64,000 nucleotides of DNA from Bifidobacterium breve (GTDB lineage Bacteria; Actinomycetota; Thermoleophilia; Solirubrobacterales; Solirubrobacteraceae). The DNA lies in contig CAMCUD010000004.1 of NCBI GenBank assembly GCA_945878865.1, positions 1 to 64,000 on the forward strand, read 5' to 3'. The notes beneath the pieces were generated by a model, which searched no databases, was not told where the DNA came from, and worked only from the letters and a program-made list of their open reading frames with translations. A program made the position numbers and the translations under genes. Of the stretch, positions 20,524 through 47,553 are shown piece after piece (the first letter of the stretch is position 1; the number at the start of each line of letters is the position of its first letter).

Positions 20524-20542
20524 GGGACTTTCCACTCATTCG

Positions 20543-20554: not shown

Positions 20555-20560
20555 ACGACG

Positions 20561-29984: not shown

Positions 29985-30054
29985 CGTCCTGAGATTCGCC
30001 CGCACGAGGCGGACCTTGAGTGAAGCCCTCGCGCGCGCGGCCGATGAAGGGGGC

Positions 30055-31449: not shown

Positions 31450-33087
31450 TCAGGAGACGGGGGCGGCGACCTGCCGCCACTGCGGCAGGGACGACTCGTC
31501 GAGCCGCGGCGTGTCGCCGTGCGGGCGGCGCGAGAGCACGGCATCGACGGCCACCGGGACCGCCGGGATGGCGAGCATGTCGGGTGACTCGTCCTCGAGC
31601 CCCAGCTCGCTGATCGTCCGCAGGAGCGCGGCGGTGTCGTCGGCGACGATGGCGAGCGTGATGTCGTCGCCGGGCGCGACGTGCTCCGCGTAGGCCTCCA
31701 GGAGCGACGGTTCGGCCGCGAGCTCGTCGGCGAACGCGAGGACCACGGTGCTCCGGGCCTCCTCGAGGCCGGCGCGCCGCGCGGCGTGGAGCACCGCGTC
31801 GGCGCGCGCAGCGGCCGGCACGTCTCCGGCGGCGAGATGCTGCGCGCGGATGATCGTCGCGGTGTCCGCTACGGCGCGGGCCTGATCGGCGGGAACCGGG
31901 CCGGGTGCGCGCAACCCCTCCTCGACGAGGGCGACCGCCGCGCCGAGCGCCTCGACGGTCGTGCCGCAGTACGCCGCGGTCCGCGCGCCGTCCAGCGGGG
32001 CGGAGGTGCGCAGGGCCCCGGCGAGCAGCAGTGTCTCGGTCGCGTCGGCCAGCGCGTGCACGCGCACGGCGTCCGGGGTTCCGGCGGAAAAGAACGGGAC
32101 GGGGAACGTCCGCGGGTCGCTCCCGCGCTTGGTCCCAACCTGGCGGCCGTCGCAGGTGATGCGCGTGAAGCCGAGCCGCTCGACCGTCGCGAGCGCGCCG
32201 GCGAGCGACCGGTCCGGCCATGGCCCTTCGAGGTCGAGGTCGTCGACGTACCAGTCCGCGCGCTGGGCGCGATCGGTCGCGAGGCTGAGCGGCCGGTCGC
32301 CCCGCGGGAACTCGGGCACGACCGACGGCGCGTTGGGCACCGCGAGCGCGGCGGGGTCGCCGTCGAGGACGCCCTGCGCCCACGCGAGCGTCTCATCGGA
32401 GTACATCCCGGGGCGGTTCAGCACGACCTTCGCCTTGAGCTGCTGGTCGGTCGCCTTGACGCGGTCGTAGAGGCCGCCGTCCTTCATGCGGTACTCGAAG
32501 ACGGCGCCGTCGGCGCGGGCGCCCGTCCAGCCGGCCTCGGCGATGCCGACCCAGAAGTCCCAGTCCTCGTAGCCGGCGACGTTGAGGTTGTAGCCGCCCG
32601 CGTCCGCCCAGGCGCGGCGGCGGAACATCGTCGAGCAGGGCAGGCAGTTGGCGTGGGCGAGGCGGCTGACCGAGAGCGGCGCGTACTCGTGACGCATCGC
32701 GCGGGCGCCGAACTCCTGGAGGATCTGCGGGAAGGCCATCCCCGCGGCGGGGTCCGCGTCGAGCGCCGCCACGCAGCCGGCGATCTGGCCGGCGCCGAGC
32801 CGGTCGTCGGCGTCCAGCGCGATGACGTACTCGCCCCGGGCGCGTTCGATGCCGCGGTTGCGCGGGATCGCGGGCTGGCCGGCGTTCTCCTGCGTGATCG
32901 CGGTGACGCGCGGGTCCTCGGCCTCCAGCCGGCGGGCGATCGCGAGCGAGTCGTCGGTCGACCCGTCGTCCATGATGAGGACCTCGAGGTCGTCGAACCC
33001 GTTGCGCAGGACGCTCTCGACGGCGTCGCGCAAGTACGGCCCGTAGTTGAAGCAGGTGACGACGACGCTGACCTTGGGCGCGCTCAC
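31450..33087 (-). CDS. GT2 glycosyltransferase with shared C-terminal module (B)
   Basis: A 545-residue protein. Residues 1-220 are GT2: VSVVVTCFNYGPYLRDAVES, IMDDGSTDDS, ALDADDRL (acidic site), then GYEDWDFWVGIAEAGW. Residues about 225-430 are a region of unknown function. From about 440 STVVLAFADELAAEPSLLEA begins a module shared with the neighbouring genes, ending in AVLSRRPHGDTPRLDESSL. GTG start overlapping the previous gene's stop (GTGA). It is the last gene of the long minus-strand group. Confidence 0.82.
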   Translation of the reverse strand: MSAPKVSVVVTCFNYGPYLRDAVESVLRNGFDDLEVLIMDDGSTDDSLAIARRLEAEDPRVTAITQENAGQPAIPRNRGIERARGEYVIALDADDRLGAGQIAGCVAALDADPAAGMAFPQILQEFGARAMRHEYAPLSVSRLAHANCLPCSTMFRRRAWADAGGYNLNVAGYEDWDFWVGIAEAGWTGARADGAVFEYRMKDGGLYDRVKATDQQLKAKVVLNRPGMYSDETLAWAQGVLDGDPAALAVPNAPSVVPEFPRGDRPLSLATDRAQRADWYVDDLDLEGPWPDRSLAGALATVERLGFTRITCDGRQVGTKRGSDPRTFPVPFFSAGTPDAVRVHALADATETLLLAGALRTSAPLDGARTAAYCGTTVEALGAAVALVEEGLRAPGPVPADQARAVADTATIIRAQHLAAGDVPAAARADAVLHAARRAGLEEARSTVVLAFADELAAEPSLLEAYAEHVAPGDDITLAIVADDTAALLRTISELGLEDESPDMLAIPAVPVAVDAVLSRRPHGDTPRLDESSLPQWRQVAAPVS

Positions 33088-34967
33088 GCGGCGAGCTCCC
33101 GCAGCGAATGCTCGTCGTAGCGGGGCACGTCGAGGTCGCGCGGGTGGCGCGAGAGCACGGCGTCGAGCACGGCGAGCTGCGCCTCGTCGATCTCGGTCGC
33201 GACGAGATCCGGGCCGTCCTCGCCGTCCAGGCCGGCGGCGGCCACGGCGGCGACGAGCTGCTCGATCTTGTCCCCGGGGGTGTGGATGAGCAGCGTGGCG
33301 GCGTCGGCGTCGAACGTGTCGGCCCAGGCGCGCAGCAGCGCGGTGTCCTGGACGAGCTCGTCGGCGTAGGCCAGTGCGTGCAGGCGCCGGCGGCCGAAGC
33401 CGGTGAGGAACGCGTCCTCGGCGTCGGTGCTTCGCGCGAGCTCGGCGTCGGTGGGCGCCGGGCAGACGGCCTCGCCCTCGAGCAGGATGCGCGCGCAGCG
33501 GTCCAGCGATGCGTCCCGGCCGGGCTGCAGCGCGTCGAGCGAGCGGTACTGCAGGACGCCCGTGTTCGGGTTGGGCATGTGCACCAGCGGGAACGGGACG
33601 TCGAGGCGGATGAAGAAGCCGTAGGCGAAGCGCAGCGCGCGGCGGCGGATCTCGGGAGAGGCGGCGCCCGCGGGGACGGCGTTGAGCTCGTCGAGCAGCG
33701 CCTCGAAGGTGTCGGGGTCCTCGACGGTGCGGACGAAGTCGGTGCCGCGGACGGGATTCCCGCCGGCGACGACGACCTCCTTGCCCTTCACCGCCATCTC
33801 CATCGCCGCGGTGCTCATCCAGACCAGGCCGACGGCCGCGAGCTCCATGAGCGTGTAGCTCGAGACGTCCTCGTCGGGTCCGATCCACCGGACGTTCGCC
33901 GGCAGGTCCCGGGCGATCTCGCGCATCTCGGCGAGCTGCTTCTCGTTGACGCCCGTCGAGCGCTTGCTGCCGGTGTTCGGGTGCACGCGGACGACGAGGT
34001 CGAGCTGCGGGTTGCGCCGCGCGTGCTCGATCGTGCGGGTGATCCAGTCGCGCTGGGAGGAGAACTCGCTCGTCCAGTCGACGTCGCCGGCGACCTCGTC
34101 GTCGGAGGAGGTGAAGAGGACCCACGTCGGCCGGTCGGCCCGCAGGTCGAGCTGCGCGCGGACATCGTCGAGCGGCTGCGGCGGCAGCGAGAGCGCGTGC
34201 CACGGGAGGTTCTTGCCGTGCTCGCGCTCGGCCATGAGGCGCACGACGGCCTCGAGCTCGTCCTGCGTGAGCGGCACCTCGGACCATTCGCGCCAGTACC
34301 GGCGGGCGGGCTCCAGCGACAGGCAGTTGGCGTTCTCGACGAGCATGAGCGACTCGGTCTGGCGGCCGCGTTCGTGGACGATCACGCGGATGCCCCGGGC
34401 CCGGGCGAGCTCGAGGGCGCACCGCGGCGACGACTGCCGGCCGTTGAAGAGGAAGAGCACGTCGGGGTCGCGCTCTGCGAGCAGCCGGTCGATCGCAAAG
34501 CATGCGACCAACCCGCTGTAGGCGTAGCTGCGCAGCGCGTCGGCCACGCGCGGCTCATGCGGGTCGATGACGCTCAGGCGGAAGTGCGACTGCACCGACT
34601 TCTGCACCCACTCGGCGACCTGCCAGTCGCCGTACGTGGCGGTCGTCAGCTCGTCGACGGTGAGCGCGTCGGCCCAGCGCCGCGCCTCACGTTGCTCGTC
34701 CCACGTCAGGTAACGGCCGAGCCAGTGGAAGTCCATGCCCATGTCGGCGACGAGCTTCGTCTGCGCGGCCTGGCACATCGTGCACGCGTTGGCCGGGCGC
34801 GGGTCGTGCGCGGCCCAGTGCTGGTCGCAGTCGGTGTACAGGCCATCGCACAGGACGTAGTCCACCTCGGCGCCGCGCAGGCGCATCGAGTGCAGGATCG
34901 TCATCTCCCACTGGCCGTGCAGCGCCCAGCGGTTGTACGGGGCGTAACAGAGGATGCGGGGGCCCAC
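33084..34967 (-). CDS. Capsule-type (KpsC/KpsS-like) GT-B protein with shared module (C)
   Basis: A 627-residue protein. It looks like a capsule polysaccharide/Kdo-transferase type GT-B protein: ILCYAPYNRWALHGQWEMT at the start, VIVHERGRQTESLMLVENAN in the middle, then VVRVHPNTGSK and AVGLVWMSTAAMEMAVKGKEV, which resemble the nucleotide-sugar site. From about 520 a module like those in the neighbours (HALAYADELVQDTALLRAW) ends in AVLSRHPRDLDVPRYDEHSL. Start GTG at 34967. Kdo and nonulosonic acids are chemically related, so a nonulosonate transferase is possible but unproven. Confidence 0.65.
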   Translation of the reverse strand: MGPRILCYAPYNRWALHGQWEMTILHSMRLRGAEVDYVLCDGLYTDCDQHWAAHDPRPANACTMCQAAQTKLVADMGMDFHWLGRYLTWDEQREARRWADALTVDELTTATYGDWQVAEWVQKSVQSHFRLSVIDPHEPRVADALRSYAYSGLVACFAIDRLLAERDPDVLFLFNGRQSSPRCALELARARGIRVIVHERGRQTESLMLVENANCLSLEPARRYWREWSEVPLTQDELEAVVRLMAEREHGKNLPWHALSLPPQPLDDVRAQLDLRADRPTWVLFTSSDDEVAGDVDWTSEFSSQRDWITRTIEHARRNPQLDLVVRVHPNTGSKRSTGVNEKQLAEMREIARDLPANVRWIGPDEDVSSYTLMELAAVGLVWMSTAAMEMAVKGKEVVVAGGNPVRGTDFVRTVEDPDTFEALLDELNAVPAGAASPEIRRRALRFAYGFFIRLDVPFPLVHMPNPNTGVLQYRSLDALQPGRDASLDRCARILLEGEAVCPAPTDAELARSTDAEDAFLTGFGRRRLHALAYADELVQDTALLRAWADTFDADAATLLIHTPGDKIEQLVAAVAAAGLDGEDGPDLVATEIDEAQLAVLDAVLSRHPRDLDVPRYDEHSLRELAA

Positions 34968-35012
34968 GCCCGGGTAGTCGGCGGCCCGTTCTGCCCGCTT
35001 GAGGGCGGAAAC

Positions 35013-36125
35013 TCAGGCTACGGCGGCGATGAGGCCGTCGAGCCCGGCGTCGAGCTGTGCGGCGGAGACGCCGTAGCTCAGGCGGACGTGGTCCTCGAGA
35101 CCGGGCCCGAACACCTCGCCGGGGACGACGGCGACGCCTCGCTCCTCCAGCAGCCGCCCGGCGAAGCCCGGTCCGGCGCCGGAGATGCGGGGGAACGCAT
35201 AGAACGCGCCGTCGGCCGCAGGCAGCTCGATCCCGGGGGCGGCGGCCAGGCGATCCCGCACCGTCGCGCGGCGCTGCGCGTACTCGGCGGTGAGCGCCGC
35301 GACGAACGGCTCGGCGTGGCGGATCGCGGCCTCGGCGCCGGCCTGGGCGAATGACGGCGCGCAGACGGCGACGTACTGATGCACGGTGGCGATCGGGCCC
35401 ATGAGCGCCTCGGGCGCCGCGATCCAGCCGACGCGCCAGCCGGTCATCGCGTACGTCTTCGAGCACGAGTCGGCGATGACCGTGCGCTCGCGCATCCCGT
35501 CGAGCGTCGCGATGCTCACGTGGTCGTCGGCGAAGCGGCGGTAGATCTCGTCGGAGAGGGCGACGAGGTCGCGATCGCGGCACAGCGCGGCGAGCTGCTC
35601 CAGCGTGTGGCGGCCGAACACCGCCCCGGTCGGATTCGACGGGGATGAGACGACGACCATCCGGGTTCGGGGGCTGACGGCGGCCGCGAGCGCGGCCGGG
35701 TCGGGCGCGAACCCGTCCTCGGCCCGGCAGGGCACGAGCACGGGCACGGCGCCCACGAGGCGCGCGAGCGCGTCGTAGTGGGGCCATGCCGGCGTGGGCA
35801 CGAGGACCTCGTCACCGGGCTGCAGGAGCCCGCGGAAGGCGGCGAACACGGCCTCGCTGCCGCCCGTCGTCACGACGATCTCGGTGGCGGGGTCGTAGGG
35901 CAGGCGCTCGGCGAGCGCGGCGCGCAGGCTCGGAATCCCGCGGTTCGCCGTGTAGTGCACGTCGCCGCTCGCGAGCGCCGCTCGCGCGGCCTGCACCGCG
36001 ACCTCCGGCGAACCGACGTGCGGACGGCCGATCTCCAGGTGCACGATCTCGCGGCCCTCGGCCTCGAGCTGCAGCGCGCGGTCGAACACCGCGCGGATCC
36101 CCGACGGCTTCGGCGCCTCAGCCAC
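35013..36125 (-). CDS. Class I PLP aminotransferase
   Basis: A 370-residue fold-type I aminotransferase (AspC/alanine aminotransferase subgroup). Visible active-site residues: N164 in SPSNPTGAV, D192 and Y195 in LSDEIYRRF, PLP lysine K223 in DSCSKTYAMTGWR. Such enzymes transaminate 2-oxo acids. In this cluster, with an aldolase that could make a 2-oxo acid, it may form an unusual amino acid; that is inference. The GTG at 36125 overlaps the preceding gene by 8 bases. Confidence 0.88.
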   Translation of the reverse strand: MAEAPKPSGIRAVFDRALQLEAEGREIVHLEIGRPHVGSPEVAVQAARAALASGDVHYTANRGIPSLRAALAERLPYDPATEIVVTTGGSEAVFAAFRGLLQPGDEVLVPTPAWPHYDALARLVGAVPVLVPCRAEDGFAPDPAALAAAVSPRTRMVVVSSPSNPTGAVFGRHTLEQLAALCRDRDLVALSDEIYRRFADDHVSIATLDGMRERTVIADSCSKTYAMTGWRVGWIAAPEALMGPIATVHQYVAVCAPSFAQAGAEAAIRHAEPFVAALTAEYAQRRATVRDRLAAAPGIELPAADGAFYAFPRISGAGPGFAGRLLEERGVAVVPGEVFGPGLEDHVRLSYGVSAAQLDAGLDGLIAAVA

Positions 36126-36933
36126 CGGCCTCGTCCGCCAGGTCGCCGCGCACGAGGTACTCCGGGTCCCGGGCCAGGCCCTCCTCGGCCAGCCGCGCCA
36201 TGTCCCGGGCGCGCACGAGGTTGATCTCACCGCGGCCGACGGCGACCGCGTGCACGAGCCCCGACTCCCGCCCGTCGCGGTCCAGCCGCATGAAGTACGG
36301 CACCTTGCGCGGATCGTCGAGCGCGCGGACGTTGTAGGCGACCTCCGTCTCGGCCGCGACGCCGTTGACGACGGTGGTGCCGCGAAAGCGCTTGATGAAG
36401 CGGTAGCCCACGCCGAGCCGCTGCTCGACGTGGTGCAGCAGCGCGGAGTGCGAGCCGATGCCGACGTTCACCATCGCCGCGTCGCGCTCGAGCAGCAGCG
36501 CGTACAGCGACTGCGGGCCGAAGCAGTCGGTCGCACCGGCGGCGGCGAGCAGCTCGTGCGCGGCCGATCCGGTGCCGATCGCCGAGAAGATCGGGTCCAG
36601 CGACCGGGCGAATCCGGGGCGCTGCCAGAGCTCGCCGGGCAGCAGCCCCATGTGCGGAGGCGGCGGGGTGGCGGCCGGGTCGAAGATCTCGTCCTTCGTG
36701 TACGAGTAGGTGTACGTCGGCAGGATCCAGCCGCCGTCCGGGCCGACGACCTCCGTGAACGCGTCGAGGAACAGCTCCGTGATCGCCTCGCGAGTCAACC
36801 CCTCCGCCGGGCGGCCGAGCATCCCGACGCTCGTGTGGCTGAACGCGATGTCCCCGCGGCGCAGCCCCAGCTCCCGGAGCGCGGCGACGACCGCCGCGCC
36901 GTCGTAGTCCGGCGCGGGCGCCGGGGCGCTCAC
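36118..36933 (-). CDS. AAC(3)-type N-acyltransferase
   Basis: A 271-residue member of the aminoglycoside 3-N-acetyltransferase family (GDIAFSHTSVGMLG, PDGGWILPTYTYSY, LDPIFSAIGTGSAAHELL, GVGSH-like VGIGSHSALLHHVEQ). Many members outside resistance loci acylate amino sugars in polysaccharide or antibiotic clusters. Here it follows an acyl carrier protein gene with a GTGA overlap, which suggests that it takes an acyl group from that carrier and adds it to an amine. Resistance is not indicated. GTG start. Confidence 0.82.
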   Translation of the reverse strand: MSAPAPAPDYDGAAVVAALRELGLRRGDIAFSHTSVGMLGRPAEGLTREAITELFLDAFTEVVGPDGGWILPTYTYSYTKDEIFDPAATPPPPHMGLLPGELWQRPGFARSLDPIFSAIGTGSAAHELLAAAGATDCFGPQSLYALLLERDAAMVNVGIGSHSALLHHVEQRLGVGYRFIKRFRGTTVVNGVAAETEVAYNVRALDDPRKVPYFMRLDRDGRESGLVHAVAVGRGEINLVRARDMARLAEEGLARDPEYLVRGDLADEAGG

Positions 36934-37187
36934 GCCGCGCGGGCCTCGTCGACGATCTGGGCGAACCCGCGGATCGTGCAGATGCGGGGGTCCTGCAGCT
37001 GCTCGGCGTGCAGCTGCACGCCGTACTCGCGCTCGATGTCGCCGATCATGATCACGAGGCCGAGGGAGTCGATCGCCTCGATCTCGAAGTAGTTGACGGT
37101 GAGCAGCGCCTCAGGGTCCTCGGGCAGGCCCTTGCCGTTGGCCGCGAGGTAGTCCATGAGCCACCGTTCGGTGTCCGTCACGTTCAC
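36930..37187 (-). CDS. Acyl carrier protein
   Basis: An 85-residue stand-alone carrier protein. The phosphopantetheine attachment serine is S41 in IEAIDSLGLVIMI, the DSL motif. Helical and acidic as usual. The start GTG at 37187 overlaps the stop of the VOC gene. It would hold an acyl or aminoacyl group activated by the ligase two genes upstream and hand it to the AAC(3)-type enzyme. A TAGCAT sequence 7 bases before the GTG is like the leaderless promoters here, but it lies in coding sequence. Confidence 0.85.
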   Translation of the reverse strand: MNVTDTERWLMDYLAANGKGLPEDPEALLTVNYFEIEAIDSLGLVIMIGDIEREYGVQLHAEQLQDPRICTIRGFAQIVDEARAA

Positions 37188-37831
37188 CGGCGCGATGCTA
37201 CTTGAAGGATTTCCACGAGCTCCCCGGCCGGTCCCTCGACGATCGCGACCTCGATCGGGCGCCCGCCGACCTCCTCGGTCCACGGCTCGGTGGCCCGGCC
37301 GAGCAGGCCGGAATCGCCCAGCCGGGCGAGGTCGGTCACGAGGCCCGTGGTCAGGACGGTCACGAGCACCCAGCCCTCGGCGTCGAGCGTGGTTCGCCCG
37401 CGCTGCGACGGACCGTCGGGCGTGACGAGCCCGAGCCGCCAGGCCGCGAGCGGGCCGGCGAACCGCCGATCGCCCTGGGGATCGGCGCGCGCGCCGAGCA
37501 GGTCCCAGAACGCGCCACTGGCCTTGGGGTCGTGCGTCGGCGCGACGACGCGCTGCGGGTGTAGCCCGTCATCGGCCTCCAGCGCGAACGGCGCGGCGCC
37601 CGCGGGCGGCCCGCCGGCGTACGCGGTCAGCTCGACAGGCAGCTCGTCGGCGACCGTGAGGTGGGTCATCGCCAGCGCCGGTCGCGGCCCGCTGAGCAGC
37701 GGCGCCTTGGCGGGGTGGACAGTGAGCGACGGCTCGAGGAACGACCGGGTGAAGCCGGCCTGCGCGTAGGGCGCCTCCGCCGTCTCGAGGTCCGCGACGT
37801 TGCGGACGACCTGCACGGCGCCGAGGATCAC
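37184..37831 (-). CDS. VOC (glyoxalase-like) superfamily protein
   Basis: A 215-residue protein with two weak beta-alpha-beta-beta-beta repeats typical of the VOC superfamily (ILGAVQVVRNVADLETAEAP at the start; HDPKASGAFWDLLGARAD in the middle; GELVEILQV at the end). VOC proteins isomerise, epimerise or cleave small oxo-acyl substrates using a metal; I cannot assign metal ligands with confidence. Overlaps at both ends (GTGA) with the methyltransferase and ACP genes, so it belongs to the same pathway. Confidence 0.65.
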   Translation of the reverse strand: MILGAVQVVRNVADLETAEAPYAQAGFTRSFLEPSLTVHPAKAPLLSGPRPALAMTHLTVADELPVELTAYAGGPPAGAAPFALEADDGLHPQRVVAPTHDPKASGAFWDLLGARADPQGDRRFAGPLAAWRLGLVTPDGPSQRGRTTLDAEGWVLVTVLTTGLVTDLARLGDSGLLGRATEPWTEEVGGRPIEVAIVEGPAGELVEILQVASRR

Positions 37832-39000
37832 GTGGCCACGAGCTCGAAGTACCACCACAGCGGGAACTCCGCGGCGAATCCCGCGGCGCGGTCCGCCGGG
37901 GCGCCGGGCCCGGGCGTGAGCTGGCGCACCGTCGCGATCGCCAGGCCCGCCGGCTCCATGGCGCGCGACAGCTCCTCGAGCGTCGGCGTCACGCCGAGCC
38001 GCCGGTGGCGGTACTCACCGAGCACGAGCAGCGGGCGGTCGGGGGCCCCGAGCCGCGGCTGCTGCCAGAACGTCCCGTCGGGCTCGAGCACCGCGATCCG
38101 CCCGCCCGGCGCCAGGCGCGCGGCGAGTTCGCGCAGAAGCAGCGCCGGATCGAGGTCCACCGCTCCGCCGTACGGGTGGAAGTAGAACATCATCACGTCG
38201 CTGAGGAAGATGAGGTCGAACCGCGTGTCGCCCAGCGCGCGCAGCCCCTCCTCGACGGGCAGGCCGAGCGGCACGGTCTCGATCCGGTCGCCCACGCCGT
38301 CTTCGGCGGCGAGCCGCGCGGCCGTGGCGAGGTGGTCCTCGTTGGTGTCCGTCGCCACGACGTGCGCGCCGGCGCGGGCGAACAGCCGCGCGAACAGGCC
38401 TGGGCCGCAGCCGAAGTCGAGCACCCGCTGGCCGGTCAGGGAACCCGGAGCGAACCGCTCGGCCATGAACGGCCACTGCACCCATCGGTACGGCCCGTCC
38501 TTCGGCTCGCGGCGGTCGGGCGTGAACTTCTGGTCGGCCCACCAGCCGTCGAGGTCGCGGATCCCCAGCTCCCGCGCGACGTACTCACCCACGCGTTGGT
38601 GCACGTTGCCGTGGCGCGCGCGGTCGAGCGGATGCGCCCGGGGGCCGAGCGACTCGGCGTACGCGGCCTCGTCCTCGACGGCGAGCTTGAGCCGGACGGC
38701 CAGCGCGATCGCCGCGTCGAGATCGAGCGGGGCCGCGTCTTCGAGCGTCGCGTCGCGGTCCAGGCCGGTCGGGTCGCCGAGCAGCCCGTCGGCGAACGGC
38801 GGCGCCGACGCGTCGACGGCGAGGAACGTCACGCCGGCGAAGCCGGCCCGGAGCTCCGGCCCGTCACCCGCACGCAGCGCGGCGAGCAGGTCGACGAACG
38901 CGGCGTCGGCCACCGCCCAGCGCGCAACCCGGGGGTTGCCGACGAGGAGCTCGCCTGGCCGGTGCGGCAGGACGAGGACCTCCTCGAGCGTGACCGGCAC
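37828..39000 (-). CDS. SAM-dependent methyltransferase with N-terminal extension
   Basis: A 390-residue protein. Residues about 1-170 are an uncharacterised extension (TLEEVLVLPHRPGELLVGNP). From about 195 a class I methyltransferase domain follows: VLDFGCGPGLFARLFARAGA is the SAM motif, with VATDTNEDHL as motif II and FDLIFLSDVMMFYFHPYG as the later acidic region. The protein ends in FPLWWYFELVAT. GTG start, 5 bases after the ligase stop. It likely methylates an intermediate of the acyl group or sugar. Confidence 0.8.
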   Translation of the reverse strand: MPVTLEEVLVLPHRPGELLVGNPRVARWAVADAAFVDLLAALRAGDGPELRAGFAGVTFLAVDASAPPFADGLLGDPTGLDRDATLEDAAPLDLDAAIALAVRLKLAVEDEAAYAESLGPRAHPLDRARHGNVHQRVGEYVARELGIRDLDGWWADQKFTPDRREPKDGPYRWVQWPFMAERFAPGSLTGQRVLDFGCGPGLFARLFARAGAHVVATDTNEDHLATAARLAAEDGVGDRIETVPLGLPVEEGLRALGDTRFDLIFLSDVMMFYFHPYGGAVDLDPALLLRELAARLAPGGRIAVLEPDGTFWQQPRLGAPDRPLLVLGEYRHRRLGVTPTLEELSRAMEPAGLAIATVRQLTPGPGAPADRAAGFAAEFPLWWYFELVAT

Positions 39001-39005
39001 CGCGC

Positions 39006-41243
39006 TCAGCGCTCCAGCGCGATGACCCGGGCCGGGGCGCCGTCGGCGCCGACCACGCGCAGCGGCAGCGCCACGAGATCGCACTCGGGCGCGCCGATCC
39101 GCTCGGGCTCGTTGAGGTACTCCAGGAGGATCACGCCGGCGCCCAGCAGCGTGTGGTGGTTCGGGCTGTCCTCCTCGCTGCCGTAGCCCAGGCGCGGATC
39201 GTCCGGGGACGGGATGTCCATCCCGAGCAGCGTCACGCCCTGCGCGACGAGCCAGTGGCACGCGTCGCGGGCCAGGAAGGGCGACTCCGTGTAGAAGTCC
39301 ATGCCGCCGAACCGCTGCGACCAGCCGCAGCAGAGCAGCACCCGCGGGTGGCGCGGCGCGCCGCCGAGCGCCTCGCGCAGCCGGTCGAGCGACACCTCCT
39401 CCAGCGGGCCGAGCGCCCCGAGGTCGGCCACCGCGGCCGGCCCGACGAGCGTGTCGAGCGGCACCTGGTCGATCGTCCCGCCGTCCTCGACGAAGTGCAG
39501 CGGCGCGTCGAGGTGCGTGCCCGTGTGCGTTCCCAGGACGAGCCGGCGGGTCGCGCGGCCCTCGACGCGGTGGCGGGCGAGCTGCGTGATCTCCGTCCGC
39601 GGGTGGTTCAGCCCGGGGAAGGTGAGCATCCCCTCCTCGATGCGGTGGCTGAGGTCGATCATGCGCCGGCCCGCGGCGTCGACGGACGGGGCCTCCGGCT
39701 CGTCGACGGTGAAGCCCTTGCGGTCGGGCTCCAGGCCGAGCTGGTCGATCGCCATGTCGCGGACGGTCGCCTTGCGGATCTTCCCCGTGGGAGTCCGCGG
39801 GAGGTGGTCGATCTGCAGGTACACGCCGGGCGCCTGGGTGGACGGCAGGCCGGCCGAGGCGTGCTGCTTGAGCGCGGGCTCGACGTCGTCGAGCGCGGTG
39901 GCGCCGCCCAGCTCCACGACGGCGACGAGCTGCTCGCCCAGCAGCGGGTCGGGGACGCCGACGACGGCCGCGCGCTCCACGGCCTCGTGCGCCTCGAGCA
40001 CGCGCTCGACCGACGCGGGGCTGACGTTCACGCCCCCGCGGATGACGATCTCCTTGCGCCGGCCGGTGATGCGCACGATGCCGTCGTCGCCGACGGTCCC
40101 CAGGTCGCCGGTGGGGAACCAGCCGTCGGTGACCCCGCGCAGGCGCAGGACGCCGTCGTCCTCGAGGTAGCCCGCCATGAGCTCGGGCGCGCGGATGAGC
40201 AGCTCGCCGCCCTCGGACACGCCGGACACCGGCTGGGTGGTCACCTCGACGCCGTCGAGCACGCGGCCTACCGCGCCGGCGGGCGCGGGGTGCGCCGGGG
40301 TCGACACGACGGCGAGGAGCGTCTCGCTCAGGCCGTAGCTGTCGTGCACCGCGGCGCCGTAGTGGGTCTCGAACCGCGTGCGGAGGTCCGGGTCGAGCGG
40401 CGCCGTGCCCGAGACGACGAGCGCGACGTGGTCGCGGACGTACGCGCGTCCCTGCTCGCCGCGGTCGAGCTGGAGGAGCATCGCCATGATCGTGGGAACG
40501 AGCCACAGGACGTCGGCCTCGTGCTTGGCGACCGTCGGCCAGAAGCTCAGCAGCGACCGGGCGTCGAACGCGCGGTCGACCACGACGCTCGCGCCCACGA
40601 CGAACGGCAGGAGCAGCAGGTTGTAGTAGCCCGCCATGTACGTCATCGGCAGGTTGTGGTGCACGCGCCGCTCGGGGGTGATGCCCAGCGCGCCGGCGAC
40701 CCGCTCGGCGTTCAGCACGAAGTCGCGCAGCCGGTGGGCGACCCCGCGCGGCGTCCCGGACGTCCCCGAGGTGAAGTGGATCGCGATGACGTCCGCCGAC
40801 GCGACGCCGTCGAACGGCGCCCACCCGTCGTCGGGCGGCGCGGCGGTGCGGGGGTCGAGGGTCGCCAGCGCGACGCCGGTGTCGGCCGCGACCTCGCGGA
40901 TCGTCGGATCGGGATCGGCCGGCGCGATGACGCACCCCGGCCGGGTGCGCCGCAGGATCGAGCGCAGCTCCCGCCGGCCGAAGCCGGCGCCGAGGGGCAC
41001 GACGGTCACGCCCGCGTAGAGCGCTCCGAGGTAGATGAGCGCGAGGTCCACCGAGTTCGGCAGCGCGATCGCGACCCGGTCGCCCGCTCGCAGCCCCAGC
41101 CGTCGCAGCTCGGCGCCCGTGTTGACCGCCAGCTCGTGTGCTTGGCCGTAGGACAGCGTCGCGCCGTCCTGCTGCGCGTCGATGAAGAGCGGGCGATCGG
41201 GCTGGCGCTCGACCTGCTCGGTCAGCGCGCGGAGGTAGCGCAT
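39006..41243 (-). CDS. Acyl-adenylating ligase fused to a cyclase-family (kynurenine formamidase-like) domain
   Basis: A 745-residue two-domain enzyme. Residues 1-500 are an ANL-type acyl-AMP ligase: phosphate loop FTSGTSGTPRG at 157-167, SYGLSE at 302-307, TGD at 378-380 and the catalytic lysine K488 in TPTGKIRK. Residues 529-745 are a cyclase-family domain (PF04199 type): IDLSHRIEEGM then HTGTHLDAPLHF with H573, H577, D579 and H583 as metal ligands. I know of no described fusion of this pair. The ligase would charge the acyl carrier protein downstream; the cyclase domain would hydrolyse or close an amide or ester. ATG start 1 base after the aldolase stop. Confidence 0.85.
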   Translation of the reverse strand: MRYLRALTEQVERQPDRPLFIDAQQDGATLSYGQAHELAVNTGAELRRLGLRAGDRVAIALPNSVDLALIYLGALYAGVTVVPLGAGFGRRELRSILRRTRPGCVIAPADPDPTIREVAADTGVALATLDPRTAAPPDDGWAPFDGVASADVIAIHFTSGTSGTPRGVAHRLRDFVLNAERVAGALGITPERRVHHNLPMTYMAGYYNLLLLPFVVGASVVVDRAFDARSLLSFWPTVAKHEADVLWLVPTIMAMLLQLDRGEQGRAYVRDHVALVVSGTAPLDPDLRTRFETHYGAAVHDSYGLSETLLAVVSTPAHPAPAGAVGRVLDGVEVTTQPVSGVSEGGELLIRAPELMAGYLEDDGVLRLRGVTDGWFPTGDLGTVGDDGIVRITGRRKEIVIRGGVNVSPASVERVLEAHEAVERAAVVGVPDPLLGEQLVAVVELGGATALDDVEPALKQHASAGLPSTQAPGVYLQIDHLPRTPTGKIRKATVRDMAIDQLGLEPDRKGFTVDEPEAPSVDAAGRRMIDLSHRIEEGMLTFPGLNHPRTEITQLARHRVEGRATRRLVLGTHTGTHLDAPLHFVEDGGTIDQVPLDTLVGPAAVADLGALGPLEEVSLDRLREALGGAPRHPRVLLCCGWSQRFGGMDFYTESPFLARDACHWLVAQGVTLLGMDIPSPDDPRLGYGSEEDSPNHHTLLGAGVILLEYLNEPERIGAPECDLVALPLRVVGADGAPARVIALER

Positions 41244-41244
41244 G

Positions 41245-42879
41245 TCAGTCGATGAGCTCCGGGAGTGGCGTGCCCGCGGCGGCGTCCCGCGCGGCGATCC
41301 AGCGGGGGAGTGAGTCTTGCAACAGGATCGGCCGGTCCACGGAGATCTTGCGCCCGTCGGGCAGCGCGACGGTGAGCGTGTCGCCGCCCACGACGATCGC
41401 GCCGTCCTGCGGGGCTGTCACGACCGGTGCGTCGGGGAACGCGGTGCGGGCGGCGAGCGCGAGGTCGTGCAGCCGCTCGCGCGCGACCGCCGCGGCGTCG
41501 TAGGCGACGACGCGGCCGTCCATCGCCTCGGCAGCGGCTCGCAGCGCCGCACCCACGTCGCCGGGGGCGAGACTGCCGGTCTCCAGCAGTGCGAGGTGCA
41601 CGCGGCCGGCCTGCTCGGCGAGCGCCTCGCGCAGCGCCGCGGGGCCGCCGAACCGCACGCGCCCGAGGGCCATGTCGTCGTCCTCGAGGACGAACTCGGC
41701 GGTCACCGCCTCCTCGTCGAGGGCCGGCGTGTGGACGAGCTCGAGCACGACCTCCAGGTGCCGCTTGGCCGCGACGACCTCGAGGCCGTCGACGAGCTCG
41801 GCGAGCGCCTCGGGCCGGTTGCCGATGCGCCGAGGGCCGAACCCGCTGGCCGAGAACTGCGCGAGCTCACGCCGGACCTCCGGGCGCTCGCTCTCGCGCA
41901 GGGCGGCGACCGCCGCGTCGAGGTCGTCCTGCGTCATCCGCATGACGTCGTGGCGGCCGAGCGCGACGATGAGCCGGAACGGGTTGACGCCCGCCTGCTC
42001 GGCGGCGGCCATCGCCTTCGGCAGGAAGCTCGAGTGAAACCGGCCGAGCCCGAGGGACACCGCGATCATGTCGTGCGGGCGCAGGTGCTCGGCCAGCGGG
42101 GTGAGGTAGGCCTCGGCGAGGTCGATGACATCGAGCGGGTCGACGCCGATGTCGACGCCCATCTGGTCGAACACCGCCGCCATCACCTCGGTCGGCACGT
42201 TGCCCGAGCTGCGCCCGATCCCGTAAACGCTCGTGTCGATGAACGTCGCGCCCGCGTCGTACGCGGCGAGGCTGTTCGCGACGGCCAGGTGCAGGTTGCT
42301 GTGGCCGTGGAAGCCGAGCGCGAAGCCGGTCTCCGCGCGCGCGGCGGCGACGAACCCGCCGACCTCGTTCGGCAGCATGCCGCCGGCGGAGTCGACGACG
42401 TAGCCGCCGAGCGCGCCGGCCCGCTCCGCGCCCACGCATCCGCGCGCGAACTCCGCCGGGGTGATCCCGTAGGTCTTCATGAAGTTCACGAAGACGTCGA
42501 GGCCCGCCTCGCGGGCGAGGTCGACGAACGGGAAGAGCTTCTCGATCTGGTCGGCGTCGTAGCCCAGGCGCACGAAGTCCAGGCCGGCGCTCGCCGCCGC
42601 GGTGAGGTCCTCGGCCTTGCCGATCCCGGGGATGAAGAACGCGCCGATCTTCGCGTGCTCGACCTTCGCGCGCGTCCGCGCGATGACGTCGAGATCGCGT
42701 GACGCGGCGCGCCCCTTGCCCGCCTCGCTGGCGCCGAGTCCCAGCCCGTGGCCGACCTCGATCCAGCGCACTCCCGCGGCATCCAGCCCGGCGGCGATCA
42801 TCGCGGTGTCGGCCGCGGTGAACTTGAAGTCGATCGCGTAGCTGCCGTCGCGGATCGTGCAGTCCAGGAGCGTCGCCAT
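41245..42879 (-). CDS. HMGL-type aldolase with an extra C-terminal domain
   Basis: A 544-residue protein. Residues 1-290 are an HMGL/4-hydroxy-2-oxovalerate aldolase-like TIM barrel: LLDCTIRDGSYAIDF (R10, D11 metal and substrate site), RWIEVGHGLG, and GFHGHSNLHLAVANS with the metal-binding His-x-His. Residues about 330-544 are an additional domain I do not recognise. Two starts exist, ATG 42888 and ATG 42879; the second is chosen because the TAGCAT -10 element overlaps the first and lies 7 bases before the second. It may condense pyruvate with an aldehyde, giving the carbon skeleton for the following enzymes. Confidence 0.8.
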   Translation of the reverse strand: MATLLDCTIRDGSYAIDFKFTAADTAMIAAGLDAAGVRWIEVGHGLGLGASEAGKGRAASRDLDVIARTRAKVEHAKIGAFFIPGIGKAEDLTAAASAGLDFVRLGYDADQIEKLFPFVDLAREAGLDVFVNFMKTYGITPAEFARGCVGAERAGALGGYVVDSAGGMLPNEVGGFVAAARAETGFALGFHGHSNLHLAVANSLAAYDAGATFIDTSVYGIGRSSGNVPTEVMAAVFDQMGVDIGVDPLDVIDLAEAYLTPLAEHLRPHDMIAVSLGLGRFHSSFLPKAMAAAEQAGVNPFRLIVALGRHDVMRMTQDDLDAAVAALRESERPEVRRELAQFSASGFGPRRIGNRPEALAELVDGLEVVAAKRHLEVVLELVHTPALDEEAVTAEFVLEDDDMALGRVRFGGPAALREALAEQAGRVHLALLETGSLAPGDVGAALRAAAEAMDGRVVAYDAAAVARERLHDLALAARTAFPDAPVVTAPQDGAIVVGGDTLTVALPDGRKISVDRPILLQDSLPRWIAARDAAAGTPLPELID

Positions 42880-42886
42880 CGAGGTC

Positions 42887-42892
42887 ATGCTA
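42887..42892 (-). promoter_or_regulatory. Leaderless-type -10 element deciding the aldolase start
   Basis: TAGCAT on the minus strand, with its last two bases inside the upstream candidate ATG (42888). The next ATG (42879) is 7 bases downstream, the distance seen in the other leaderless promoters of this window. Confidence 0.4.
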
Positions 42893-42912
42893 CGCCCGTC
42901 CCCGGCCGCGAT

Positions 42913-44220
42913 TCACCTGCTCGGGCGGGGAATCGCGGGCTCGGCGACGACGAGCCCCGCCTCGCGCAGCCGGTCCACGAAGCCGCGCACGTCGGCGAAC
43001 GGCAGCCCGACCTCCTCGGCGATGTCCAGGAGGGTCCGGTCGCCTTCGAGCTTGAGCATGATCTTGTCCTGCGCCGCGTTGAGCTCCGGGTGGGTCCGCC
43101 AGTCGACCCACAGCCCGTGGCCGGAGAGGAACACCGGCCCGCGGAAGGTCCGGCGCGGGACGTAGTTCACGGCCGCGGTCCGGACGATCTCCTCGACGAC
43201 GTCGGCCGCCTCGGCGAGCCGCTCCTCGGTGATGATCGCCGGCGTGTCGTCGCTCGTGTGGTACTCGGGGTACGGCCAGCGGCTGATCGACACGCAGGGA
43301 ACGTCGATCCCCGCGCCGTTGATGATGAGCTCGTCGTTGACGATGACGTCGCGGAACGCGCCCTCGCGGACCTCGCCGCGCGTGGCGAGCACGGCCCGGG
43401 CGATCCGGTCGACGGCCTCGTCGTCCTGGCGGCTGCGCTGCAGGACGAACGTGTTGTCGTTGCCGGTCATCTCGCAGAACACGCCGCCGCGCAGCCGGTC
43501 GATGAGGTCCTCGTGGTGGCTGAGGTAGGCGATGCTCCCGATGGTCTCCGGGCAGAAGAGGAACCGCACGCTCATCGCGCCGGCCGGCAGTGGGTCGGCG
43601 ACCAGACGCCGCGCGACCTCCGCGGCGGTGACCACGCCGGACAGGTCGTCGTTCGCCTGCGCGGGGTGGTCGATGTGGGCGCAGACGAGGAACTCCCCGG
43701 CCGCCGGGTCCGGGCCGCCCGCCGGGTGGACGAGCGCGGTGCCCACCCGCAGCCCGCGCTCGGGGTCGGTGACGAACTCCGAGCGGATGACGGCGCGGTA
43801 GCGGCCGTCGCGCGGGAGGGCATCGAAGGTGGACTGCGGCAGGCAGAAGCCCCAGCTACGCTCGTAGTACTTCTGCTCCCACGGGATCGCGTCGGGGCGG
43901 TGCGGCGCGGTGTGCAGGTGCGGCGCGAGCTCGTCGAACGTCAGCGTCGCGTCGACCGGCTCGGAGTAGCTGACGAGGTGCAGCGGGTGGTCGGCGAAGT
44001 CGACGATCCGCGCCCCGCCCTCGTGCGCGAGGTAGGCCTCGTGGACGACGTAGCGCTCGGGCACCGTCCACGTCCACACCGGGGTGCCGGGCGGGTACGT
44101 CTCGGTCGCCCAGCTCGCCTCGGGCGGGAGGCTGTCCCCGAGCAGCCGGAGCGCCTCGTCCGTTCCGTCGGAGACGAGCGTGCGGTGCAGCGGGTACATG
44201 GCCTCGAGCAGCTCGAGCAC
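42913..44220 (-). CDS. DUF4910 aminopeptidase-like zinc protein with winged-helix tail
   Basis: A 435-residue protein of the DUF2172/DUF4910 type, an M28-like metallopeptidase fold, with a winged helix at the C-terminus (about 370-430, LDIAEEVGLPFADVRGFVD). Metal ligands of the M28 fold appear retained: VCAHIDHPAQANDDLSG (His and Asp), FCPETIGS (Glu), FCEMTGND (Glu) and PEYHTSDDTP (His). Such proteins occur in polysaccharide and nonulosonic acid clusters, where they may deacylate or remove an amide. The GTG at 44220 is 6 bases after TACCTT, so the transcript may be leaderless. Confidence 0.8.
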   Translation of the reverse strand: MLELLEAMYPLHRTLVSDGTDEALRLLGDSLPPEASWATETYPPGTPVWTWTVPERYVVHEAYLAHEGGARIVDFADHPLHLVSYSEPVDATLTFDELAPHLHTAPHRPDAIPWEQKYYERSWGFCLPQSTFDALPRDGRYRAVIRSEFVTDPERGLRVGTALVHPAGGPDPAAGEFLVCAHIDHPAQANDDLSGVVTAAEVARRLVADPLPAGAMSVRFLFCPETIGSIAYLSHHEDLIDRLRGGVFCEMTGNDNTFVLQRSRQDDEAVDRIARAVLATRGEVREGAFRDVIVNDELIINGAGIDVPCVSISRWPYPEYHTSDDTPAIITEERLAEAADVVEEIVRTAAVNYVPRRTFRGPVFLSGHGLWVDWRTHPELNAAQDKIMLKLEGDRTLLDIAEEVGLPFADVRGFVDRLREAGLVVAEPAIPRPSR

Positions 44221-44254: not shown

Positions 44255-45727
44255 TCAGGTCGCGCGCTCGAGGCGGACGAGGCGCACGCCGTCGCGCTCG
44301 CCCTCCCCGGCGCGCCGGAACCCGCACCGGGAGAAGGCCCGCAGGCTGCGGGCGTTGTCCGGCGCGACCTCGGCGACGACCGTGTGGGCCCCCGCGTCGC
44401 GAGCGGCCTCCACGGCGGCGTCGATGAGCGCCGGCCCGATGCCATGGCCCGTCCGGTCCTCACGGACGGCGACGGAGATGACCGCCGCGCCGCCCTCGAG
44501 ATCGAGGCGGACGACGCCGACGTCCGCGCCGTCCCGCGGGTCGACGCCGATCCGCACGATCCGGTCGGGCCGCGCCAGGGTGGCGTCGTACCAGCGCCGG
44601 TGGGCCTCCAGCGGGATCGGGTCCTTTGCCACCGCCTGGCTGCGGACCGACTCCTGGTTGTTGATCTGCCACACGAGCTCGCAGTCCTCGGGGCGCGCGT
44701 CGCGCAGCACGGCGGCCGGGGCGATGCCGCTCTCACGCAGGACCCGCACTGCGCCCTGCCCGTCGACGAGCGCGCGGCCGGCGGCCGACAGGGCGTCGCG
44801 CCGCGCACGATCGGCGGCCAGCTCGCGGACGGCGGCGGCGACGCCGGCGGGGGACAGGTCGGCGTGGCGCCCGAGCGAGACCGCGACCCCCGCGCCGCGG
44901 AGCGCGGTCGCCACGGGCGCCTGGTTGTCGGCGATGACGATCGCCAGCTGCGGTGTCCCCGCGCGGGCGAGCTCCCACGAGGTGCCGCCCGCCGCCGTGA
45001 TCGCCAGGTCGGCCCAGGCCATGCGCGCGGGCACGTCGCGCGCGTCGACGACGACCTCGACGGCGTGGTCGAGGGTGTCGGCCCGGGCCATCAGGGTGGA
45101 CCGGTGCGGATTGGTCGCGCCGACGAGGACGACGACCTCGAGCGGCGGTCCGACCTTCGCGAGCCCGTCGAGCACCAGCCCGGTCACGTCGTCGGGATCG
45201 CCTCCGCCCAGGGAGACGAGGACCCGCCTGGCGGTGTCGGGCGTCGTGCGCGGCGGTGGTGTCCACGCGCGGAACTCGCGGCGCAGCAGCGCGTAGCGCG
45301 GTCCCAAGAGGAGTCGGGGCACGTCGGGGTACGGCGCCCCCGTGGCGCCCAGGTTCTGGTCGAGGAGCACGTCGGCGACGTGCCCCGGGGCGATCCCGCG
45401 GTCGTCCATCGCCAGGACCCGCAGGCCCCGGTCGCGCAGCATCGCTTCGAACGGCGCGCCGAAGCCGTAGCCGTCGACGACGACCCAGCGGGCGCCGAGC
45501 CGCACCGCCAGCGCGGCGGTCGCGGCCGCGTCGTCGGGGTCCTCGAGCTCGGCGACCGCCATCCCCTCCTCGGCCAGCCGCGCGACGATCCCCGCCGGTG
45601 GGTCGTGCATCGCGAACGTCGCGGGGCCGCCCCCGAGGTCGGCGAGCGCCTGCGCGAGCGCGAGGCACCGCATGACGTGCCCGACCCCGATCGCGGCCGA
45701 CGCGTCGGCGCGCACGACGACGGTCAT
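44255..45727 (-). CDS. pseG: PseG-PseH fusion (UDP-sugar hydrolase plus N-acetyltransferase)
   Basis: A 490-residue fusion. Residues 1-330 resemble PseG, the GT-B-like hydrolase that removes UDP from 2,4-diacetamido-2,4,6-trideoxy-L-altrose: VVRADASAAIGVGHVMRCLALAQAL at the start (metal/substrate site), VDGYGF, SLGGGDPDD, and ITAAGGTSWELARAGTPQL. Residues about 340-490 are a GNAT domain like PseH (RPEDCELVWQINNQESVR, then VREDRTGHGIGPALIDAAV with the acetyl-CoA loop). PseH acts just before PseG, so the fusion joins consecutive steps. ATG overlaps the upstream gene (ATGA). Confidence 0.85.
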   Translation of the reverse strand: MTVVVRADASAAIGVGHVMRCLALAQALADLGGGPATFAMHDPPAGIVARLAEEGMAVAELEDPDDAAATAALAVRLGARWVVVDGYGFGAPFEAMLRDRGLRVLAMDDRGIAPGHVADVLLDQNLGATGAPYPDVPRLLLGPRYALLRREFRAWTPPPRTTPDTARRVLVSLGGGDPDDVTGLVLDGLAKVGPPLEVVVLVGATNPHRSTLMARADTLDHAVEVVVDARDVPARMAWADLAITAAGGTSWELARAGTPQLAIVIADNQAPVATALRGAGVAVSLGRHADLSPAGVAAAVRELAADRARRDALSAAGRALVDGQGAVRVLRESGIAPAAVLRDARPEDCELVWQINNQESVRSQAVAKDPIPLEAHRRWYDATLARPDRIVRIGVDPRDGADVGVVRLDLEGGAAVISVAVREDRTGHGIGPALIDAAVEAARDAGAHTVVAEVAPDNARSLRAFSRCGFRRAGEGERDGVRLVRLERAT

Positions 45728-46461
45728 ACGGTCTTCTGCTCGACGTGCGCGTTGATCGCGGGGATGTCCGGATGCGCGCGGCAGTACGCGACGATCTCGG
45801 CGCTCGTCGTCGCGGGCGCGTCGGCGAGGCCGAGCCCCGCGTACAGGCGGCGCGCGACCTCCAGGTCCTCCGGGGTGTCGACGGTCCAGCGCAGGTCCGG
45901 TGCGTCGACCGCGCCGCGCACGGAGTGCGAGACGAAGAGCTCCGGCCGGCCCGTGCGGCACAGCCAGGTCACGTGCTCGCGCGCCGGGGCCTCGGTGCCC
46001 AGCCGGTCCATCCGGTCGAGCACGTCGCGCCAGAGCGCCTCGCAGGCGAGGCCGAGTGGGAGGTGGGGCTCCAGGACGTTCGCCGCGTAGTCGGCGGTCT
46101 CACGCCGGGCGCTCATCTCGGCGATGACGCGGTCGACCTCCACCGGGTCGATGAGCGGACAGTCCGAGGTGACGCGCACGACCATGTCGGCGCGCGCCTC
46201 CCGCGCCGCGCCGACGTACCGGCCGAGCACGTCGGACTCGCTGCCGCGGAACCACCGCAGCCCGAGGCGGTCCGCCAGCGCGACGAGCGGATCGTCCGTC
46301 GCGTTGACGGTCGTCGCGACGACGACCTCGTGCGCGAGCGTGCACCGCGCGAGCCGTTCCAGCTGGCGCTCGAACATCGGCTTGCCCGCGAGGTCGGCGA
46401 GGACCTTGCCCGGCAGCCGCGTCGACGTCGTTCGGGCCTGGACGATCACGGTCGACCGCAT
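45724..46461 (-). CDS. spsF: SpsF-type cytidylyltransferase (likely CMP-pseudaminate synthase)
   Basis: A 245-residue nucleotidyltransferase of the SpsF type: STVIVQARTTSTRLPGKVL at the nucleotide-binding N-terminus, then FRGSESDVLGRYVGAA and VVRVTSDCPLIDP (metal-binding Asp). In pse loci a protein of this kind often takes the place of PseF and activates the finished sugar as the CMP form. The ATG at 46461 lies 6 bases after TAGCCT, so it may be leaderless. The next gene, PseG-PseH, overlaps it by 4 bases. Confidence 0.82.
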   Translation of the reverse strand: MRSTVIVQARTTSTRLPGKVLADLAGKPMFERQLERLARCTLAHEVVVATTVNATDDPLVALADRLGLRWFRGSESDVLGRYVGAAREARADMVVRVTSDCPLIDPVEVDRVIAEMSARRETADYAANVLEPHLPLGLACEALWRDVLDRMDRLGTEAPAREHVTWLCRTGRPELFVSHSVRGAVDAPDLRWTVDTPEDLEVARRLYAGLGLADAPATTSAEIVAYCRAHPDIPAINAHVEQKTV

Positions 46462-46473: not shown

Positions 46474-46530
46474 TCGGCGGCCGACGCCGAATCCGTCCGT
46501 ACGCTTCCTGCGCAGCGCGCCTCCCCTGCC

Positions 46531-47553
46531 ATGAACCTCGACGGCAAGACCATCCTCATCACCGGTGCGACCGGCTCCTTCGGCACCGCGTTCATGCGCA
46601 CCGTCCTCGAGCGCTACGACGTCGCGTCGATCCGCGCGTTCAGCCGCGACGAGCTCAAGCAGTCGGAGCTGCACTCGAAGATCCCCGACGACCGCATCCG
46701 GCTGCTGCTCGGCGACGTGCGCGACCTCGACCGGCTGCGCGTCGCCACGCGCGGCGTCGACGTCGTGGTCCACGCCGCCGCGCTCAAGCAGGTGCCCGCC
46801 TGCGAGTACAACCCGTTCGAGGCGATCCAGACGAACGTGCTCGGCGCCCAGAACGTCGTGTCCGCGTCGATCGACAACGACGTCCCGCTGACCATCGCCC
46901 TCTCGACCGACAAGGCCGTCAACCCGGCGAACCTCTACGGCGCGACGAAGCTCTGCGCCGAGAAGATCGTCGCGCAGGCCGGCGCGTACGCCTCGGGCAC
47001 CGCGGCGCGGTTCGCCTCGGTCCGGTACGGCAACGTCGTCGGCAGCCGCGGGAGCGTCATCCCGATCTTCCGCCAGCAGGCCGAGACGGGCCTCATCACG
47101 ATCACCGACGAGCGGATGACCCGCTTCTGGATCACGCTCGAGGAGGCCGTCGAGTTCGTGCTGAGCTCGATGTCGCTCGTCACCGGCGGCGAGACGTTCG
47201 TCCCGAAGATCCCGAGCATGCGGATCACCGACATCGCCGAGGCCCTCGCGCCGGACGCCGAGCGCCGGATCGTCGGGATCCGGCCGGGCGAGAAGCTCCA
47301 CGAGGTGCTGCTCACCGAGGACGAGTCGCGCCACTCGCGCGACATCGGCGACCGGTACGTCATCACCGCCCATCGCGTGGGCCTGCGCCCGGCGCCCGAG
47401 GACGATCGGGGCGAACCGCTGCCGGACGGCTTCCGCTACGCGTCGGACACGAACGAGCAGTGGCTGTCCGCCGAGGACGTCCGCCGGATGGCGGCGGCGC
47501 TCCCGCCGGCCCGGCGCGCGGGCGACCGGCGCGACCGCGTCGGCGACGACTGA
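46531..47553 (+). CDS. pseB: UDP-N-acetylglucosamine 4,6-dehydratase (inverting), PseB
   Basis: A 340-residue short-chain dehydrogenase/reductase. NAD binding: ILITGATGSFGTAF. Active-site region: ALSTDKAVNPANLYGATKL (D, K and the Y-x-x-x-K pair). It converts UDP-GlcNAc into the 4-keto-6-deoxy-L-arabino sugar, the first step to pseudaminic acid. Length fits soluble PseB rather than the membrane-bound WbpM type. The stop is one base from the stop of the convergent formyltransferase gene (TGACTCA). Confidence 0.92.
   Translation: MNLDGKTILITGATGSFGTAFMRTVLERYDVASIRAFSRDELKQSELHSKIPDDRIRLLLGDVRDLDRLRVATRGVDVVVHAAALKQVPACEYNPFEAIQTNVLGAQNVVSASIDNDVPLTIALSTDKAVNPANLYGATKLCAEKIVAQAGAYASGTAARFASVRYGNVVGSRGSVIPIFRQQAETGLITITDERMTRFWITLEEAVEFVLSSMSLVTGGETFVPKIPSMRITDIAEALAPDAERRIVGIRPGEKLHEVLLTEDESRHSRDIGDRYVITAHRVGLRPAPEDDRGEPLPDGFRYASDTNEQWLSAEDVRRMAAALPPARRAGDRRDRVGDD

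Follow-up and report, generated by a model that had tools for sequence, protein, structure and literature searches.

What does a set of acyl-building genes do between the glycosyltransferases and the pseudaminic acid (Pse) genes of a flagellar locus? The question was raised by a 64,000-nt stretch of DNA (the window; positions 1-64000 of contig 4 in a 4.96 Mb high-G+C actinobacterial assembly), in which flagellar genes, glycosyltransferases, and Pse genes follow each other from left to right. An initial annotation had described eight minus-strand genes and two subsequent glycosyltransferase-type genes at 31450-44220 as an apparently undescribed pathway for an unusual acyl or amino-acyl group, and all ten were found where it had placed them. 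These genes belong to a larger operon, which probably makes a Pse that bears a purpose-built acyl group in place of its C5 or C7 N-acetyl. Nonulosonic acids vary largely by their N-acyl groups, and the making of the exotic ones is mostly unexplained; here, one transcription unit contains a complete candidate set for acyl synthesis, loading, deacylation, transfer, activation, and glycosyl transfer.

An operon joining pseudaminic acid and acyl genes

With pseF and the pseG-pseH fusion as its first genes, the operon spans 46461 to 31450, beyond what had been claimed: gaps are short or genes overlap, no promoter-like sites were found within it, and terminator-like sites inside it do not exceed the chance level. 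The order of transcription is pseF, pseGH, the DUF4910 gene, aldolase, ligase-cyclase, methyltransferase, a small gene labeled 'VOC', acyl carrier protein (ACP), AAC(3), aminotransferase, a KpsC-like glycosyltransferase (GT_A), and a GT2 glycosyltransferase. The first two genes overlap by 4 bp, and 34 bp separate pseGH from the DUF4910 gene. Gaps of 24, 1, and 5 bp and three 4-bp overlaps follow, and the 3' end has an 8-bp overlap, a 45-bp gap, and a 4-bp overlap. The link to the Pse genes is thus stronger than had been noted, since the acyl genes share their operon with pseF and pseGH.

PseB, PseC, and PseG were assigned to the pathway by the NCBI curated equivalog cut-offs. The operon starts with a pseF-type CMP-nonulosonate cytidylyltransferase gene (45724..46461, minus strand; PF02348, E 3.4e-24), followed by the PseG-PseH fusion of a UDP-sugar hydrolase and a GNAT N-acetyltransferase (44255..45727, minus strand; GNAT domain at residues 340-471), which passed the PseG equivalog with 207.8 bits (cut-off 153.55) and had no match in two other genomes of the genus. 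Divergent from the operon, on the plus strand, are pseB (46519..47553; 451 bits vs the PseB equivalog cut-off of 407.75), pseC (48936..50072; 442.5 bits vs 423.5), and a pseI/neuB-type synthase gene (50126..51124, start approximate; PF03102 and SAF), which scored below the cut-offs of both PseI (315 bits vs 340) and NeuB_NnaB (363 vs 400). A PseG homolog of about 511 aa in Peregrinibacteria (L089:13069-14604) is likely the same PseG-PseH fusion.

The DUF4910 protein and its AAC(3)-fold partner

The third gene of the operon (42913..44220, minus strand) encodes a DUF4910/DUF2172/M28/HTH_47 protein (Pfam) of the CA_C2195 kind, Cj1295-like, for which a role as deacylase or transacylase of a sugar amide is proposed. 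DUF4910 and its DUF2172 insert scored 171.9 and 104.6 bits, over the Pfam cut-offs, and HTH_47 scored 25.3 bits, just below its cut-off of 27.1. The protein aligns across its length (3-419) to 3k9t, the structure of CA_C2195. The ligand positions of a single zinc site (H185, D191, and H321) are retained, and the M28 Asp and Glu are lost, with A187 and P224 at these positions (P224 replaces the Glu). The AAC(3)-fold N-acyltransferase (36118..36933, minus strand; PF02522, E 4.8e-26) has the conserved H33 and the H/E of LHHVE. An antibiotic resistance role was rejected for it, since its best score (73.9 bits) is far below the NCBIfam equivalog cut-off of 420 and its relatives are conserved in pse loci; none of its relatives were found on plasmids.

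A two-sequence alignment of the window's own DUF4910 subfamily was used as the query and retrieved 40 relatives. Nonulosonic acid genes (NeuB, PseF, or PseG homologs) were found in the fetched flanks of 33 of them, or 34 when the truncated NeuB of a Parcubacteria locus (L088) was counted, and an AAC(3) gene was near 20. The co-occurrence with pse genes to which the initial annotation had looked was thus seen, across phyla, for the DUF4910/AAC(3) sub-module. In the other DUF4910 subfamily, which comprises most of the actinobacterial DUF4910 proteins found, nonulosonic acid genes were nearby in only one of nine cases. In the tree, the window protein groups as sister to 23 Chloroflexota proteins (support 100/99), and the DUF4910 proteins from its own class and family lie far away; therefore, the gene was horizontally acquired or is otherwise patchy. 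Relatives of the window's pseF adjoin DUF4910 genes in Chloroflexota.

AAC(3) and DUF4910 are fused into one polypeptide of about 710 residues in three Chloroflexota genomes (L066:9188-11314, L067:9188-11314, and L081:9167-11314), and no NeuB, PseF, or PseG homologs were found in the fetched flanks of these fusions. The Parcubacteria locus (L088:6811-12235) has a row of genes for an AcpS-like small protein, FkbH, ACP, AAC(3), DUF4910, a methyltransferase, and NeuB, and represents a compact form of the system, of the glyceroyl type. The window resembles the Parcubacteria and Chloroflexota loci in its DUF4910 and AAC(3) genes, adjacent or fused there, with NeuB or PseF; it differs from the former, which uses FkbH with ACP, and from the latter, where relatives of the ACP, aldolase, or ligase were not detected. 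Both the literature and the fusions point to DUF4910 as the partner of AAC(3), and the two are likely to act as a pair, DUF4910 deacetylating and AAC(3) re-acylating. The fusions thereby offer a direct role, open to testing, for DUF4910, a family whose structure is solved and whose biochemistry is unproven.

Acyl exchange of this kind has precedents. In Campylobacter jejuni NCTC 11168, Cj1295 is needed for 5-N-(2,3-di-O-methylglyceroyl)-Pse, in which this group replaces the C5 N-acetyl, and its discoverers suggested cleavage of the C5 acetamido group as its role (PMC3068675). Cj1295 is a DUF2172, putative M28 zinc peptidase-type protein (PMC6321876), and in a set of 16,130 genomes the presence of cj1295 follows that of the pse genes (PMC13130089). 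The window shares with this system, which exchanges the N-acetyl of Pse for an O-methylated hydroxy-acyl group, a DUF2172/M28-type protein beside pse genes in a flagellar locus; unlike it, the window has an aldolase, an aminotransferase, and a ligase-cyclase, and no FkbH-type gene (Cj1295 was compared by its published description). The neighbors of CA_C2195 in Clostridium acetobutylicum are spsE, spsF, and genes for a glyoxylase, an aminosugar N-acetyltransferase, ACP, a HAD-acyltransferase, and MAF; the structure paper (3k9t) noted that the M28 catalytic pair is missing and that gene fusions exist, and proposed that an amino sugar is transacylated or deacylated (PMC4000134). DUF4910, the aminosugar N-acetyltransferase, ACP, NeuB (spsE), the cytidylyltransferase (spsF), glycosyltransferases, and, if the 'VOC' label holds, the 'glyoxylase' are common to that locus and the window, whereas its acyl supply is a HAD-phosphatase plus acyltransferase protein (FkbH-like) and an ATP-grasp ligase, with no aldolase and no AMP-ligase-cyclase. 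The window also resembles FkbH-type glyceroyl N-acylation of Pse in having ACP, an AAC(3)-type transferase, a methyltransferase, and DUF4910 together. The idea of re-acylation by a peptidase-like protein, AAC(3), and ACP is therefore not new: the word 'undescribed' fails for the pathway as a whole, the DUF4910, AAC(3), and ACP module with nonulosonic acid genes being published (PMC4000134) and Cj1295 having an experimental phenotype on Pse (PMC3068675). What appears new is how the acyl group is supplied, rather than its exchange.

The acyl supply and a proposed route

No FkbH domain was found in any operon protein (Pfam), and the FkbH-type glyceroyl route appears to be replaced by the aldolase, ligase-cyclase, aminotransferase, and unusual methyltransferase. 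Most family labels of the initial annotation were confirmed by Pfam, that of the GT2 included; 'VOC', read by eye, had no library match, and GT_A, with no Pfam match of its own, was recognized only through its relatives. The active-site motifs are intact in the ligase, cyclase, carrier protein, aminotransferase, and methyltransferase.

The HMGL-type pyruvate aldolase (41245..42888, minus strand; HMGL-like Pfam match, weak DmpG communication domain) has a unique C-terminal extension of about 210 aa. It scored 275 bits against the subfamily model NF006049/PRK08195 (above the cut-off of 229) and 241 bits against the equivalog TIGR03217 (under the cut-off of 286). Arg13, Asp14, His194, and His196 are retained; residue 17 is Tyr (His in 40 of 42 homologs) and residue 285 is His (Tyr in 38 of 42). 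The protein is like the 4-hydroxy-2-oxovalerate aldolases BphI/DmpG in its TIM-barrel HMGL fold, metal ligands, and Arg (35-38% identity), and unlike them in the change of the catalytic His to Tyr, the extra C-terminal domain, and the missing partner aldehyde dehydrogenase (no acetaldehyde dehydrogenase gene was found in the operon). Besides its own, none of 188 genomes of the phylum had a relative of the extension, and no full-length relative was found in the class (199 genomes), the phylum (396), or Chloroflexota (251). Nor was one found when about 85,000 species were scanned by pattern, a scan that needs near-exact peptides and could miss distant sets. Matches in the class, phylum, Chloroflexota, and plasmids were to the barrel only (30-38%), and the plasmid regions inspected by gene table proved to be clusters of a catabolic type. 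Among aldolases with RDGSY for RDGxH, the closest (L063:8214-12236, in an actinobacterium of another family) was rejected as belonging to a different set; it sits in another small cluster, beside genes for a thiamine-diphosphate-type enzyme and an NDP-sugar epimerase-like protein.

The next gene (39006..41243, minus strand) encodes, in one frame, an acyl-AMP ligase joined to a metal hydrolase of the cyclase type (PF00501, PF13193, and PF04199). The ligase motifs SGTSG, YGLSE, and PTGKIRK and the cyclase motif HTGTHLDAP (HxGTHxDxP) are intact, and no ligase preceded the cyclase in any of the 11 other cyclase loci opened. The S-adenosylmethionine (SAM) methyltransferase (37828..39000, minus strand; PF13489) has an N-terminal region of about 180 aa of a unique kind, for which no covering relatives were found; matches elsewhere were to the SAM domain only, and the protein was in no other of the 146 genomes searched in the family. 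For the small 'VOC' protein (37184..37831, minus strand), Pfam, NCBIfam, and the PDB gave no matches, and the AlphaFold model (pLDDT 32) was unusable. The ACP (36930..37187, minus strand; PF00550, 22.9 bits vs the cut-off of 20.8) has the DSL serine in the phosphopantetheine site DSLGL at 40-44, and the class I pyridoxal phosphate aminotransferase (35013..36125, minus strand; PF00155, E 2e-64) carries the lysine motif SKTYAMTGWR.

From these families, the following route is proposed. The aldolase would join pyruvate and an aldehyde to a 4-hydroxy-2-oxo acid, a chemistry that we favor slightly, and the aminotransferase and/or methyltransferase would convert this to a 2-amino-4-hydroxy and/or methylated acid. 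The ligase would adenylate the acid and load it onto the serine of the ACP; that this ligase loads the carrier is rather likely. The cyclase domain could open a lactone, a form that 4-hydroxy acids readily take, or a lactam, hydrolyzing an unwanted cyclic or amide form. DUF4910 would take the acetyl group off a Pse precursor, the AAC(3)-fold enzyme would acylate the amine so freed with the group on the carrier protein, PseF would activate the sugar as a CMP-sugar, and the KpsC-like glycosyltransferase (and GT2) would attach it to a surface acceptor, possibly flagellin. The carrier-protein route with AAC(3)-type transfer to an amine of the nonulosonic acid, as initially annotated, is supported by the operon shared with pseF/pseGH, by the equivalog matches of PseB, PseC, and PseG, and by the occurrence of DUF4910/AAC(3) relatives among nonulosonic acid genes across phyla. 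A farther-reaching possibility, rated somewhat less likely than not, is that the operon holds a further kind of acyl supply for nonulosonic acids, in which a pyruvate-aldol-derived, transaminated, and methylated (amino)acyl group is assembled by the ligase-cyclase on ACP and exchanged onto Pse. If so, Pse would bear an amino-acid-like side chain not seen before.

A nonulosonic acid with a methylated amino-acyl group is known from Clostridium botulinum (Leg5GluNMe7Ac; PMC13317340). It is a legionaminic acid, and the comparison is at the level of the product. The flagellin glycan of Treponema denticola contains a methoxy-trihydroxyhexanoyl amide, which a pyruvate aldol reaction could make. This glycan (450.2 Da; PMC9481697) was considered as a product analog and kept as a lead only.

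Acceptor and alternative explanations

The first glycosyltransferase after the acyl genes, GT_A (33084..34967, minus strand), is a KpsC/Capsule_synth-like protein and a candidate CMP-nonulosonate transferase. Eight of the nine members of its alignment match Capsule_synth (PF05159), the only PDB matches of its profile are to KpsC (6mgb, E 0.0056), and its relatives occur in Chloroflexota pse loci. Its AlphaFold model is poor (48.6), and the Foldseek list shows only a generic GT-B core. KpsC uses CMP-Kdo, so a KpsC-like enzyme fits a CMP-nonulosonate donor. The GT2 glycosyltransferase (31450..33087, minus strand; PF00535, E 9.7e-30) ends the operon. An unassigned C-terminal domain of about 105-140 residues (37-41% identical) is common to GT_A, this GT2, and another GT2 (29941-31449). 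The catalytic domains of the GT_A and GT2 proteins are different, and the common domain could be a docking domain for a shared acceptor.

By position, flagellin is a plausible acceptor: the flagellin gene (20513-21355), FlhA (14467-16530), and other flagellar genes flank the locus, and Pse is the usual sugar of flagellin. The modified sugar may instead go to a capsule or another surface glycan, a possibility that we rate only somewhat below even, as the glycosyltransferase after the acyl genes is KpsC/Capsule_synth-like and just one weak Maf-domain match was found in the genome, on another contig. This would change the acceptor only and is compatible with the proposed acyl exchange. More at odds with the proposal, and quite improbable, is that the eight genes form a small natural-product cluster, placing a carrier-bound amino acid on some amine, merely beside the pse genes, with Pse left plain. 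A ligase, ACP, aminotransferase, methyltransferase, and acyltransferase are typical of small non-ribosomal pathways, and the ACP weakly matches the cispentacin ACP model (19 bits vs the cut-off of 80). The set also resembles that for the butirosin side chain, made by a ligase, ACP, and an acyltransferase acting on an aminoglycoside amine. Yet the same operon contains pseF/pseGH, across a gap of only 34 bp, and has glycosyltransferases at its end, and the DUF4910 subfamily accompanies nonulosonic acid genes in 34 of 40 loci.

Within the chemistry itself, DUF4910 could be a transacylase, with the amino sugar receiving a peptide, glutamine, or another acyl group from it and AAC(3) acylating separately. 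This was proposed for CA_C2195 on the grounds that it retains one zinc site but not the M28 Asp and Glu (PMC4000134), and in the window protein, too, the three zinc ligands are kept and the two lost residues are replaced by A187 and P224. However, the loss of the N-acetyl in the Cj1295-dependent sugar requires amide breakage (PMC3068675), and the AAC(3)-DUF4910 fusions point to removal followed by addition; a transacylase is thus considered unlikely.

Several points weigh against the preferred reading, deacetylation by DUF4910 and re-acylation by AAC(3) with an ACP-bound group. Both M28 catalytic residues are lost, and plain amidase chemistry is therefore not assured (PMC4000134). No ACP was detected in the Chloroflexota loci with DUF4910, AAC(3), and PseF by two ACP queries (a weak test for such short proteins), and the pair may therefore use acyl-CoA. 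The aldolase, having lost His at position 17, may not do the standard aldol reaction, and the 'VOC' gene has no confirmed family. The complete gene set was found in no other genome searched, so the acyl-building steps are without comparative support.

Adjoining pseC are a formyltransferase-like gene (47555-48307) and a PIG-L deacetylase gene (48232-48936), which suggest a second 'acetyl off, other acyl on' step in this locus, probably a separate exchange of N-acetyl for N-formyl on the same sugar. Among the flagellar genes, an SRP54-GTPase/FlhF-like gene is located at 16401-17972. The protein at 58415-60325 has an unusual pairing of an FlgD-type Ig domain with a region that resembles the C-terminal portion of N,N-dimethylformamidase.

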